A DNA stretch of 64,000 bases from an uncultured Ureaplasma sp. (GTDB lineage: Bacteria; Bacillota_I; Bacilli_A; Mycoplasmatales; Mycoplasmoidaceae), in NCBI GenBank assembly GCA_947039515.1, contig CAMQYY010000002.1, positions 1 to 64,000 of the forward strand. The letters are read 5' to 3'. A program made the position numbers and the translations under genes. Below the pieces are notes generated by a model that made no database searches, was not told the DNA's origin, and saw only the letters and a program-made list of their open reading frames with translations. The stretch's first letter is position 1; the number at the start of each line of letters is the position of its first letter. Below, piece by piece: positions 23,283 to 31,855 of the stretch.

Positions 23283-24113
23283 ATGCCTGAGCTTCCAGAA
23301 GTTGAAACTGTTGTAAGATATTTAAATAACAATATTTTAAATAAAAAGATAGTTGAAATCATTGTTCATAAAGAAAAAATTATCAAGAACACTAACAAAA
23401 AAAATTTTATAAATTTTATCATTAATGAAAAAATATTAAAAGTTGAAAGAAAAGCAAAATATATTATTTTTGTTTTTAGTAATAATAAAAACATGATTTC
23501 TCATTTAAGAATGGAAGGAAAATTTTTTGTTGAAAAAAATGATTCAGAATTAATTAAAAATAAACATTCACATATTTTATTTAAATTTGAAGATGATAAA
23601 TATTTAATATACAATGATACAAGAATTTTCGGAACCATGAATATTTATAATAAAGAAGAGATGTTCAATAATAGAGAACTAATTAGAGTTGGTTATGAAC
23701 CATTTGATAAAAATTGTAATGTTGATTATTTATTTGAAATTTTTAAAAAAAGTAATAGAAAAATAAAAACCATTTTATTAGATCAAAGTATTATTTCTGG
23801 TATTGGGAATATATATGCAGATGAAATTCTTTTTCAAGCAAAAATATTACCTTTTAGAGAATCAAAATCATTAAATAAAAATGATATTAATAATATTTTA
23901 TCAGCTTCAATAGAAATATTGAATAAATCAATATTAAATAAAGGAACAACTATTCATAGTTTTAAATCAAACAGTTTAGAAACTGGTAATTATCAAAAAT
24001 TTTTAAAAGTACACACTAGAAAGGATAAAGAATGCTTAATTTGTAAAGACAAAATAATTAAGACAAAAGTTAATAACAGGGGAACATATTATTGTGAAAC
24101 ATGTCAAAATTAA
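23283..24113 (+). CDS. mutM: Formamidopyrimidine-DNA glycosylase (Fpg/MutM)
   Basis: 276 residues. It removes oxidised purines such as 8-oxoG and nicks the abasic site. The N-terminal catalytic PELPEVETV is intact, followed by the H2TH region (LDQSIISGIGNIYADEILF) and a C-terminal zinc finger with CLIC and CETC. AAGGA lies upstream. The stop overlaps the stop of convergent ispD by a few bases. Its presence fits the oxidative-stress genes elsewhere in the window. Confidence 0.96.
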   Translation: MPELPEVETVVRYLNNNILNKKIVEIIVHKEKIIKNTNKKNFINFIINEKILKVERKAKYIIFVFSNNKNMISHLRMEGKFFVEKNDSELIKNKHSHILFKFEDDKYLIYNDTRIFGTMNIYNKEEMFNNRELIRVGYEPFDKNCNVDYLFEIFKKSNRKIKTILLDQSIISGIGNIYADEILFQAKILPFRESKSLNKNDINNILSASIEILNKSILNKGTTIHSFKSNSLETGNYQKFLKVHTRKDKECLICKDKIIKTKVNNRGTYYCETCQN

Positions 24114-24784
24114 TTATTTTTCTCAATAATCAATTTTGCCAATTCAAAATCCTCATAAGTTGTTATTTTAAAATTTAATTTTTTCCCATAAACTATTTTA
24201 GGGTTATATTTATTAACATAAAGTCCAATAGTATCAGTTATTTTGTTATTAATATCAAAATCATTTTTAATATTTTTTATTATTTCATACTTAAAACTTT
24301 GAGGTGTTTGAAGTGTCAAAAAATCATCTCTATTTAGATTATTTAATGTTGATTTATCACAAATTGTATTTTCAATTTGTATATAAGTTCCTACTATTTT
24401 ATTATTTTTTATATTATCTAAATGATTATTAATAATTTCATTGTCTATCAAAATTCGGTTTCCATCATGGATTAGAATACAATCAATATTTTTTAATTTC
24501 AGATTGATATTAATTCATTCAATTGCTTTTATTAAACTTTTATGTCTAGATGTGCTGCCACTAATTAATTTAATTTTATTATGATATTTTTGATTTAAAA
24601 ATTCATGATATTCATTTTGAATAACTATAATAATTTTGTCAAAATTATTATTTGAAATAAATTTATCAATTGTATATTCAATTAAATGTTTATTTTTAAT
24701 TAATTCCATTTGCTTTAATTTATTACTATTATTAGCAAATCTTTTACCAATACCATTTGATAAAATAATTCCTATTTTTTGCAT
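24110..24784 (-). CDS. ispD: MEP cytidylyltransferase IspD
   Basis: 224 residues. It joins CTP to 2-C-methyl-D-erythritol 4-phosphate in the non-mevalonate isoprenoid pathway. A nucleotidyltransferase start (ILSNGIGKRF with NKLKQM) replaces the usual AAGxGxRM...KQ, IHDGNR replaces HDAARP, and TLQTPQSF is kept. The protein is diverged but every block is in order. It follows nrdA by eight bases with AGGGT before its ATG. A related cytidylyltransferase such as TarI is possible, but ispF nearby at 28403 supports IspD. Confidence 0.8.
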
Positions 24785-24792
24785 ATCTTACC

Positions 24793-27153
24793 CTATGTAC
24801 AACTATCACATATTTCTTCAATACTATCTTTTTCAGTTTTGCAATAATAAAATGTTTTTATTCCAAGATGGAATCCATAAAAATGAAAAAGGGAAAATTC
24901 TGTTAATGATTTAACCTTAGTAAAGTAACTATTAATAGATTGTGATTGATCTAAATAACATTGTCTTATAGCAGCATTTTTTAATAGCATGTATTGATCA
25001 CAGTCAGTTGCAATTTTATAATATTTTCAATTATTTTTTAAATTAGGAGCAAGTGTTGGTAAATTTATTTTTCCATCTTCTTTATAAATAAAATTTTGAA
25101 TCGGTTCTATAGATTCAGTAGCATTAATTATTTTTCCAGAAGTAGCAGTTGGAGCAATCGCCATTATTTGAGCATTTCTCAATCCTGATTTTTTTATTTT
25201 ATTAGATAAGTTATTTCATTTTTTCATATCAGGCTGATAATTAGTTAATTTTAAAGCATGCTTATTAGCACGATATATAGGTAAATCACCTTTTGCTCAT
25301 TTTGTTTTCTTAAAATTATTGAAACTTCCTTTTTCGATAGCTAAATTAGCAGATGCATTAATTAATTCATATGAAATTTCATCCATTATCCGATGATTCT
25401 CTTCTAATGCTTCTTTTGAATCTATAATAATTTTTTTAGTTGCTAAATAATTTGTCAAATTTAAAATACCTACTCCTAAATATCTGAAATTTTGATTAGT
25501 TTTTTGAGCTTCAATTACAGGATACATCCCAATATCAATAGTATTATCTAGTGCTCTTATAATTAAATTTGTGATATTTTTTTTATTTTCAAAACTAGAT
25601 GAAAAATAATTTAATAAGTTAATAGAAGCTAAATTACACAAACTAATATCACCAGCAATTCTCTTATTGATAATAATCTTTGAATCATTAGTATCAAAAT
25701 AAGTTTCTATTTCTTTTGATGATGAACTAGGTAAAGTTATTTCTGTACAAAGATTAGATGAAGAAATATATTCATTTAACATTGAAACTTCATTTACATT
25801 TTCCTCATGGAATAAATATATATTACCTGTTTCAACTCTTTCTTTAAACAGTAAACCAATAATTTTTCTTGCATTAATAGTTTTTTTAGATATCTTCGGA
25901 TCATTTTCATATTTAATGTATAATTCATTGAATTTATCGCCATAACAACTTAAAAGATCTGGTACATCCTTCGGATCGAATAAAGAAACTTTTTCATTTT
26001 TTAAAACTCTATCAATCAATAATTGATTTATTTTTACTCCATATTTTAAGTTTCTAGCCCTATTTTCTTCTGTACCATTATTATTTTTAAGTACAACTAA
26101 ATCTTGAAAATTATTATTTCATCATTGAAAATACAAAGCACAAGCCCCAGGTCTATGTGAGCCTTGATTAAAAGATTTTATAGTTGATTCAAATATTTTA
26201 ACAAATGAAACTGGTCCAGTACTATAATCTCCATTATCACCAATTTTACTACCACTACTTCTAATACTAGAAATATCAATAGCAATTCCTCCTTTATTTT
26301 TTGAATAGATAGCTAAATTTTTAGTTGTATTCAAAATTGAATTAGTATCATCATCAGTTGACATTATTACACATGATGCTAATTGCATTTTATTAGTTCC
26401 TGAATTTAACATAATAGGTGTTGCTAATGTAATATCGTGATTTGAAATCATGTCATAAAATTTTTTAATATAATCTATTCTTTCATCTTTTTTTTCATTA
26501 TAGAAAAGAGTCATAGCAACTCTCATATAAACATGTTGAGGGAGTTCAAATTTTTTAGTTTTTGTTATGTTTTTACAATATTTTTCAAAGAACATATAAA
26601 GACTTTTATATTTAAAAAGAGTATCTCTTTTAGGTTTAATAATTTTTTCTAAAATTTCAATATCTTCATTAGAATAAGTATTATAAATATTTGCATTATA
26701 TATATTATTATCTAATCCCTTTTGGATAACATCTTTAAATTTTGGATAATAGCTGCTCATTTCATTTTTTGAAAGAATTTGTTTTTTATCTCATGTTTCT
26801 TTATAAATTTTTAATAATAAAAGTTTTGAAGCAATATCTTCATATTGAGGCTGAATTCTTGAAATATTATTTACAGCAGTTCTAATAAGTTCATCATAAA
26901 CATCAGTAATTTTTATTTCATCATATAGTTTTATTCTAGTTGCTTTTAGTAAATGTTCAACATTTCCTTCATTGTTATCACACGCTCATAAACATACTTT
27001 ATGCATTTTTTGAACGTCATATTTAACAATTCTTCCATCTCTCTTTGTAATTTTTAAATTATCAATTAATTTTTCTTTTTCAAAATCAAATTGCTCATTG
27101 ATATTATCATTACTTTTTTCAACATCTATTAGACTAATTTTTCTCTCAGACAT
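24793..27153 (-). CDS. nrdA: Class Ia ribonucleotide reductase, large subunit NrdA
   Basis: 786 residues. It reduces ribonucleoside diphosphates using a radical supplied by NrdB. An N-terminal ATP-cone (TKRDGRIVKYDVQKMHKV) gives dATP feedback. The catalytic Cys residues are in LASCVIM, NLCTEI and DISLCNLASINL. The radical-transfer pair is in KTFYYCKT, and the C-terminal shuttle Cys are in EICDSC. LKYGVKINQL and SLFDPKDVPDL match the E. coli type rather than NrdE. Mycoplasmas normally carry the Ib set NrdF-NrdI-NrdE; no nrdI is present here. AAAGGG precedes ATG 27153. Confidence 0.92.
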
Positions 27154-27166
27154 AATTAATTTCCCT

Positions 27167-28291
27167 TTATTTTTCATCAATAATTTTTTCAAGCAAAGAT
27201 TCTAAATTCTTTTCTCCAATATCAAATTCCATTGTTCCAATATTATAACTAATAGATATTTGTTCTTGTTGAGCAGTATTATCTTTATTGATATCTTTAT
27301 AGAATTCAAATCATTTAACAATTTCTATATCATTATTTATTTTATAAATAGGATCTATTCCTATATTATTAAGTCTTAAATTTGCATAATATTTAATAAA
27401 TTCTTCAATAACATTTAATGTTAATGATTTAATAGGACCAAAATCTAAAAGATAATTTGCCCATATAATTTCTTCATTTACTACTTTTTTAACAATTTTT
27501 ATTGTTTCTTCTTCAAATCAATTTGTATTAAAAAGGTTTTTAAAACCTTCATTTTTATCTTTTTTTAAAATATTTAATAAACTTCCAATAACAGCAACAT
27601 GTTTATCTTCATCATAATTAATTAGCTTAATAATTTTTGAGATTCCTGGGATTGCATTTGCATATGAATCATTTATTATATATGTAACAAGGAATGAAAC
27701 ATAAAATTTTATTCCTTCAAGAAAATAAATTTGAATTAACAATGACAATATTGTTTTTTTATTTTCTTCAGTATCAGTTAATAAATCCTTTTTTAATAAA
27801 TATTTTACTTTATCATAAGCCTCAATTTCAGCACTAACTCTATTTTTAATAGCATCTAGTTCATATATTCTATTAAAAACATCAGTAGCATCACTTGAAA
27901 ACATTTCTCTAATAATATGAGAGTACGAAAGTGAATGAATTAATTCGAAATATGCCTGTGACTTAAAAACAGATTCTCATTCACTCGAAGTAACGATTTC
28001 ACTCATTATTGAATCTAATCCTCTATTTTGAGTACTGTCCATTAATGTTTGAAATAATAGATTATTAATTATCACTTCTTGAACATGGTTTGGTAAATTT
28101 TCAAAATTTTCCTTATCATGAATTAAAGAAATCTCTTCAGGAGTTCAAAATGCTTGTCGCATAGATCTTTCAATATTTTTTGTTATTTTATTTTTGTAAA
28201 TATCATATCTTTGAAAGCCATTATAACTTCCAAAAAAAATTTTCTGATTATCAATAGGAACAATCAATTCTAAATCTACTATTTTTTTCAT
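27167..28291 (-). CDS. nrdB: Class Ia ribonucleotide reductase, small subunit NrdB
   Basis: 374 residues. All diiron ligands are present: Asp in LMDSTQ, Glu and His in ELIHSLSY, Glu in FLEGIKFY, and Glu and His in YDEDKHV. The radical Tyr is in SLSYSHIIR, corresponding to E. coli Tyr122. Motifs and length match NrdB (class Ia) rather than NrdF. GGAG upstream sets ATG 28291. nrdA follows after 13 bases in the same operon. The enzyme needs oxygen to form its radical, an interesting contrast with the rubrerythrin gene. Confidence 0.92.
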
Positions 28292-28402: not shown

Positions 28403-28852
28403 ATGTTTGTTGGATTTGGTAAAGATATCCATAAATTAGAAAAAAAAAATAAAAAAATATTACTTGCTGGAATTGAAGTTGAATCGGAATATTCAATTAT
28501 TAGTCATTCTGATGGTGATGTTTTATTTCATGCAATATCAAGAGGTATTCTTGGAGCACTTTCTTTGGAAGATATTGGAACATATTTTCCAAATAGTCAA
28601 GAAAATTTAAATTTAAATAGTCATGATATTTTAATTTTTTCTATTAACAAAATGAAAGAAAATAATCTTATTATTTCTAATATAGACATTACTATTACTT
28701 GTGAAAAGATTATTTTAAAAAATTTTTTATTAAAAATTAAAAAAAAATTAATTAACGATTTAAGTTGTGAAAATATCAGCATTAAAGCAACTAAATTTGA
28801 GGATGAAAATAATAATTTTATTTTATGTGAAGCAATTTTAATTTTAAATTAG
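28403..28852 (+). CDS. ispF: MEcPP synthase IspF
   Basis: 149 residues, normal length. It cyclises CDP-ME 2-phosphate to methylerythritol cyclodiphosphate in the MEP pathway. The metal site is in GKDIHKL (Asp, His) and SHSDGDVLFHAI (His), and GALSLEDIGTYFP is the family signature. The C-terminal IKATKFEDE block corresponds to the usual KATTTE. It is divergent from nrdB and convergent with ligA, and its partner ispD lies 3.6 kb away beyond nrdA. Confidence 0.92.
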   Translation: MFVGFGKDIHKLEKKNKKILLAGIEVESEYSIISHSDGDVLFHAISRGILGALSLEDIGTYFPNSQENLNLNSHDILIFSINKMKENNLIISNIDITITCEKIILKNFLLKIKKKLINDLSCENISIKATKFEDENNNFILCEAILILN

Positions 28853-30931: not shown

Positions 30932-31855
30932 ATGGAAAAATTTGATTTATTAATAATTGGTGGCGGTCCAGCTGGTTTTACTAGTGCTATTTATGGAGAA
31001 AGAGCTAATTTAAAAACCGCTTTTATTGAAAATGATGTACCAGGAGGAAAAGTTACAAAAACCGCTGTTGTCGAAAATTATCCAGGTTTTGATTATATTC
31101 AGGGCCCAGATTTAGCTCTAAAAATGTTTTCTCAAGTTGAAAAATTAAATTCAAAATTTATCTTTGCAACTGCTAAGAAGATTACTATTGAAAACAATTT
31201 AAAAATAGTTACCCTTGATAGTGGTGAAAAAATCACTGCAAAAGCAATTATAATAGCTATTGGAACTATTAATAGAAAATTAGGTTGTAAAGGTGAAGAA
31301 GAGTTTATTAATAAAGGAGTTTCATATTGTTCTATTTGCGACGGACCATTTTTAAAAAATAAAGTAGCAGCAGTAATAGGATCTGGTAATTCTGCTATGG
31401 AAGAATCTTTATATTTATCTGAATTAGCTAGTAAATTATATTTAATTAACAGATCAGATAAGTTCAAAGGTACTCCTTCATTATTACCAAGACTTGAAGC
31501 AAAAAAAAATATTGAAATTATTTATAATAGTTCTGTTATTGAAATTTCAGGAACTAAAAAAGTTGAACAAATTGATATTGAAGATAAAAATGGTGAGATT
31601 AAACAAATTAAAATTTCGGGAATATTTCCTCTTGTTGGTTTGTTATCAAAAAATATTGAAATTGAGAACGGAGAATTAAAACTTTCAAAAGAAGGGTTTA
31701 TCATAGTCAATGAATCTATGGAAACTTCTATTCCCGGAATATTTGCTGCTGGTGATATAGTTGATAAAAAAATACGACAAATTTCAACAGCTATAAACGA
31801 TGGAACAATAGCAGCATTATCTGCTAAGAAATACATTAATGATTTAGAAGAATAA
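30932..31855 (+). CDS. trxB: Thioredoxin reductase
   Basis: 307 residues. A flavoprotein that passes electrons from NADPH to thioredoxin. It has the FAD-binding GGGPAG, the redox pair CSIC before DGPF, the NADPH-binding GSGNSA and the second FAD motif FAAGDI. AAGG precedes the ATG. It would drive the peroxiredoxin (53457) and ribonucleotide reductase (24793) encoded here through a thioredoxin that is not in this window. Confidence 0.96.
   Translation: MEKFDLLIIGGGPAGFTSAIYGERANLKTAFIENDVPGGKVTKTAVVENYPGFDYIQGPDLALKMFSQVEKLNSKFIFATAKKITIENNLKIVTLDSGEKITAKAIIIAIGTINRKLGCKGEEEFINKGVSYCSICDGPFLKNKVAAVIGSGNSAMEESLYLSELASKLYLINRSDKFKGTPSLLPRLEAKKNIEIIYNSSVIEISGTKKVEQIDIEDKNGEIKQIKISGIFPLVGLLSKNIEIENGELKLSKEGFIIVNESMETSIPGIFAAGDIVDKKIRQISTAINDGTIAALSAKKYINDLEE

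Follow-up and report, generated by a model that had tools for sequence, protein, structure and literature searches.

Relatives of the uncultured Ureaplasma sp. studied here normally reduce ribonucleotides with the class Ib or Ie system NrdF-NrdI-NrdE. The 64,000-nucleotide stretch of its DNA that was analysed (the window, 22% GC) instead carries a gene pair of class Ia type, nrdB and nrdA, which raises the question of where this ribonucleotide reductase (RNR) came from and what it does in the cell. Replacement by horizontal transfer or retention of an ancient form had both been suggested in the initial annotation. Based on the results of this study, the pair probably encodes a functional housekeeping class Ia RNR, which the common ancestor of the clade that now carries it would have captured in a single event from genes circulating among large tailed phages.

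Both genes annotated at 24793-28291 were found on the minus strand, in the order nrdB then nrdA, with reading frames intact under code 4 (TGA = Trp). The small, radical-generating subunit is encoded by nrdB (27167..28291, 374 aa, four TGA codons read as Trp; identified by Pfam, residue mapping and AF2 fold) and the large, catalytic subunit, with an N-terminal ATP cone, by nrdA (24793..27153, 786 aa; Pfam and residue mapping). The 13 nt between the nrdB stop and the nrdA ATG (27154..27166, minus strand), read directly from the sequence, hold the ribosome-binding site AAAGGGAA, and the true nrdA start was accordingly placed at the ATG at 27153; the previously listed TTG at 27192 was rejected as a merely mechanical ORF start. 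The two genes probably form a single transcription unit. They are flanked by an ispD-like cytidylyltransferase gene (24110..24784, minus strand; TIGR00453, 121.7 bits, below cut-off) and an ispF-like gene (28403..28852, plus strand; TIGR00151, 104.1 bits, below cut-off), and the thioredoxin reductase gene trxB (30932..31855, plus strand; TIGR01292, 337.7 bits against a cut-off of 343.45) lies about 2.6 kb from nrdB. The other chromosomal neighbours are ligA, secA and a mutM-type gene, labelled from its sequence alone. The order at the ispD-like gene is common to the window and genome G158, and an ispF-like gene adjoins nrdB also in G158 and G105.

Judged by sequence, NrdAB looks like an ordinary class Ia RNR, the novelty of which is evolutionary. 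NrdA consists of an ATP cone (PF03477, 28.1 bits against a cut-off of 25.8), as had been proposed, with all-alpha and barrel domains (Ribonuc_red_lgN; Ribonuc_red_lgC, 425 bits). NrdB is an R2 protein (Ribonuc_red_sm, 147 bits), and its AF2 model (pLDDT 83) is nearest in fold to E. coli NrdB structures (TM ~0.8). The QTLMDS and SYSHIIR motifs and the radical tyrosine noted earlier in NrdB are all present, the last being Y123 (E. coli Y122). The six metal ligands of NrdB (D85, E116, H119, E192, E228 and H231), its Y123, W49, D227 and Y349, and C259, N465, C467, E469, C504, Y767/Y768 and C780/C783 of NrdA (numbered from E3 of the ATG start at 27153) are kept in 18 mollicutes and ten phage relatives, one truncated NrdA in this count being without its C-terminus. 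When mapped onto E. coli, the features of a class Ia small subunit (the tyrosyl radical site with its pocket, six iron ligands, W48, D237 and Y356) and of a class Ia large subunit (the barrel, the five redox cysteines including C225, C439, C462 and the C-terminal CxxC, Y730/Y731 and N437/E441) are all retained, as is the N-terminal ATP cone. In contrast to class Ie enzymes, in which the metal-binding carboxylates are lost through Val/Pro/Lys changes, NrdB keeps four carboxylates and two histidines, and the pair also differs from mollicute class Ib/Ie systems in having an ATP cone and no NrdI.

The description of the pair as E. coli-like therefore stands for the motifs but not for descent, as identity to E. 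coli NrdAB is about 30% and the two fall in separate clades. The NCBIfam class 1a equivalog cut-offs were not reached (NrdA, NF006578, 487.9 against 813 bits; NrdB, NF006576, 163.9 against 346 bits), whereas the phage families phrog_84 and phrog_86 scored far higher (749 and 274 bits). Unlike E. coli, the mollicute pair has the order nrdBA, a C-x2-C tail and no adjoining YfaE-type ferredoxin gene. Its ATP cone retains K9, R10, K21 and W28, but T55 is replaced by Ile, H59 by Tyr/Phe and H88 by Lys; in the ten phage relatives, T55 is Ile in nine and Val in one, H59 is Tyr/Phe in all and H88 is lost in all. The substitutions T55I, H59Y and H88K suggest that feedback by dATP would be weaker or different.

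The window's assembly (G000; 687 kb, seven contigs, 86% complete) holds one RNR large subunit and one small subunit. No nrdI was found next to nrdBA, in agreement with the initial annotation, or anywhere in the assembly, and the search that had been proposed for nrdE and nrdF, extended to class II and class III (NrdD) genes, likewise detected none there. NrdAB would then be the housekeeping source of dNTPs in this cell. As NrdI is absent, the likeliest cofactor is a di-iron tyrosyl radical: the NrdB site would be activated by O2 to form the radical at Y123 without NrdI, and the radical would pass through NrdB W49/Y349 to NrdA Y768/Y767/C467, where NDPs are reduced. A thioredoxin is encoded elsewhere in the genome, glutaredoxin/NrdH was not detected in it, and trxB is close by, so that the C-terminal CxxC of NrdA (C780/C783) is likely re-reduced by thioredoxin/TrxB.

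Phage-type NrdAB was found in 18 of 298 genomes of the order, every one in the window's own family, Mycoplasmoidaceae, and a scan of all 95 genomes of the family returned the same 18 carriers; one additional weak match (E 4.5e-8) came from a genome with NrdF. The carriers, among them uncultured Ureaplasma MAGs, Mycoplasmataceae MAGs and Candidatus Ureaplasma intestinipullorum (L063), all fall in a 30-species clade that includes the Ureaplasma-type MAGs. NrdI, NrdEF and any second class I enzyme are absent from all of them, and no genome of the family combines NrdAB with NrdEFI. In G105, G093, G102 and G149 (90-95% complete), NrdAB is the sole RNR found. Elsewhere in the family, class Ie NrdF (FMVGVHARSY) occurs in most of genus g2, part of g3 and G063, class Ib (MMEQMHAKSY) in g4, g6 and g8, class III NrdD in almost every g7 genome and throughout g10, and class II NrdJ in G060, while G030, G111, G075, G170 and G203 gave none of the three RNR families searched above threshold (G111 and G203 being outside the large-subunit search). 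Thus the general statement that mycoplasmas normally encode NrdF-NrdI-NrdE is correct for the order but not for this family, in which class Ib, Ie, phage-type Ia, II, III or no RNR is found. In a survey of 58 Ureaplasma assemblies (PMC10121223, eLife 2023), RNR matches were reported only for the Candidatus Ureaplasma intestinipullorum MAG, with neither class nor origin given in the passage concerned; this is apparently the same gene pair. The present results qualify the published statement that Ureaplasma is without ribonucleotide reduction.

The best database relatives of the pair are the enzymes of Vibrio phages Va1, phiTY18 and pv27, with 51% (NrdA) and 49% (NrdB) identity. Together with IMG/VR phages (phrog_84, phrog_86), they form a Va1 group with 50-53% (NrdA) and 46-52% (NrdB) identity that shares with the mollicutes the nrdB-nrdA order, the CESCT C-terminus, the YLFHEENVN motif and the ATP-cone substitutions T55I and H59Y/F; the core motif FHEENVN is found in 18/18 mollicutes, phage Va1 and 13 of 14 IMG/VR relatives. 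No known phage relative exceeds about 53%, and the remaining phages are at or below 44%, mostly about 27-34%. IMG/VR contributed Va1-like phage contigs of up to 205 kb, plus more distant phages, and tail, tail-fibre, baseplate, late sigma, primase and helicase genes surround the phage nrdBA. The Va1-group genes thus sit in large tailed phages of other hosts, whereas the mollicute pair is chromosomal, uses code 4 and is the host's own RNR. A virus scan with NrdB peptides drawn from mollicutes alone gave no match, but one based on a wider alignment did. In some Campylobacter phages (L284-L287 with L362-L367), NrdA is in two distant pieces, the N-terminal one beside nrdB and the C-terminal one tens of kb away, and in the IMG/VR phage L081 (5845-10209) a homing-endonuclease ORF interrupts nrdA.

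In separate trees of NrdA (98) and NrdB (95), the mollicutes and the Va1 group formed one clade; the phages of Cobetia, Yersinia and Campylobacter branched outside it, the E. coli and T4-like enzymes fell in another clade, and the concatenated trees nested the mollicutes within phages (95/97 and 91/95). Placement of both subunits in the mollicute NrdE/NrdF clade, which had been named beforehand as the outcome that would speak against transfer, was rejected in AU tests (p 0.003 for NrdB, 6e-8 for NrdA). An origin of NrdAB in the phage gene pool is therefore well supported. An all-phage clade beside the mollicutes, however, was not rejected (p 0.063 and 0.129), and for this reason strict nesting, and with it a transfer from phage to host, is preferred without being established, which leaves room for an unsampled cellular donor.

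Such a donor would be a bacterium from which Va1-type phages and mollicutes each took the pair. Besides the AU results, the GenBank entry of Campylobacter phage NCTC12673 mentions similarity to the RNR of Brachyspira, a genus outside the sampling of the trees, and the bacterial genome scan used two peptides. These two conserved NrdA peptides, however, matched only mollicutes among about 85,000 species genomes, and no such bacterium appeared in the Bacillota sampled or on plasmids. The best trees also put phages on both sides of the mollicutes, and we consider this source unlikely. Two particular donors were rejected, i.e., class I enzymes of the other Bacillota sampled (best score ~118 bits, compared with ~645) and NrdA carried on plasmids (~33% identity).

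Much less probable is that class Ia is an old trait retained by mollicutes, from which the phages obtained it. NrdAB does predate the split of five genera, but its range is limited to a single clade within a single family, and nothing this similar was seen in the remainder of the order and class; the hosts of the named outgroup phages are Proteobacteria and Campylobacter, and transfer from mollicute to phage needs the reverse topology. Retention of an ancient form is thus not borne out, and replacement by horizontal transfer agrees both with the phage affinity and with the mutual exclusion of NrdAB and NrdEFI. That the pair is assembly contamination or a prophage remnant, as a draft in seven contigs might allow, can be dismissed: it contains in-frame TGA codons at 22% GC, lies among housekeeping genes in the same order as in G158, and recurs in 17 other genomes including G084, a single 1.28-Mb contig in which contamination is excluded.

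Under the preferred reading of capture from phages, the pair would have been taken once, from the pool formed by the Va1 group and related phages, by the ancestor of a Mycoplasmoidaceae-type mollicute clade. In an RpoB+RpoC tree (2345 columns), all 17 sampled carriers fall within the 30-species clade formed by g1, g3, g5, g9 and g11. Over the 17 shared taxa, the RF distance between the NrdAB tree and the RpoBC tree is 4, with each genus monophyletic and the inner order nearly equal. This near-match implies one early acquisition, before the five genera split, and mostly vertical descent, followed by loss or replacement by class Ie. Identity of the two topologies was rejected (AU p 0.006), chiefly owing to the deep order of g3, g9 and g5, and one transfer between genera is therefore possible. 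Some descendants would later have lost NrdAB or exchanged it for class Ie NrdEFI, and in several members of the clade it would now be the only RNR. G063 (L051), of the Ureaplasma-type genus g5, has class Ie NrdF-I-E, and its NrdEF groups with g2 (97), so that it was probably reacquired separately.

These results provide a well-sampled case in which a cell apparently swapped an essential DNA-precursor enzyme for a phage-lineage version, which was then kept as the housekeeping enzyme of a mollicute clade through the divergence of five genera. Metal-free class Ie and phage-type class Ia in close relatives, once within genus g3, offer a natural comparison of the two enzymes between similar cells. 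A wider reading can be put forward tentatively: the DNA synthesis of the clade may run on an RNR captured from a T4-like phage. The basal genera of the family, with class III only, have an anaerobic appearance, and the aerobic RNRs (Ib, Ie, phage Ia and II) may have been gained separately, so that an essential function might have disappeared and then returned through transfer by phages, the host keeping their relaxed dATP feedback.

Other unusual RNRs were also observed in the order. In G060 (g2, Mycoplasmatales), the sole RNR detected is a B12-dependent class II NrdJ (L233, 4911-7526; PRK08115, 1221 bits), and G015, of family f8 of the same order, has a different NrdA/NrdB pair (L050, 3319-6870), which resembles neither NrdEF nor the phage type. 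A split class III RNR was found in g7 (L391, 4215-4448; L392, 1273-1569; L393, 3492-3692; L394, 3210-3425) and also in g10: the NrdD core stops short of the glycyl-radical domain and is followed by nrdG, and the motif CPxCGS...SRxTGYLSLDERFGxGK is on a separate ORF of 67-99 aa. This ORF might serve NrdD as a detached radical domain, which would make it comparable to YfiD/GrcA; about 30 genomes of the family give the same two-piece NrdD match.
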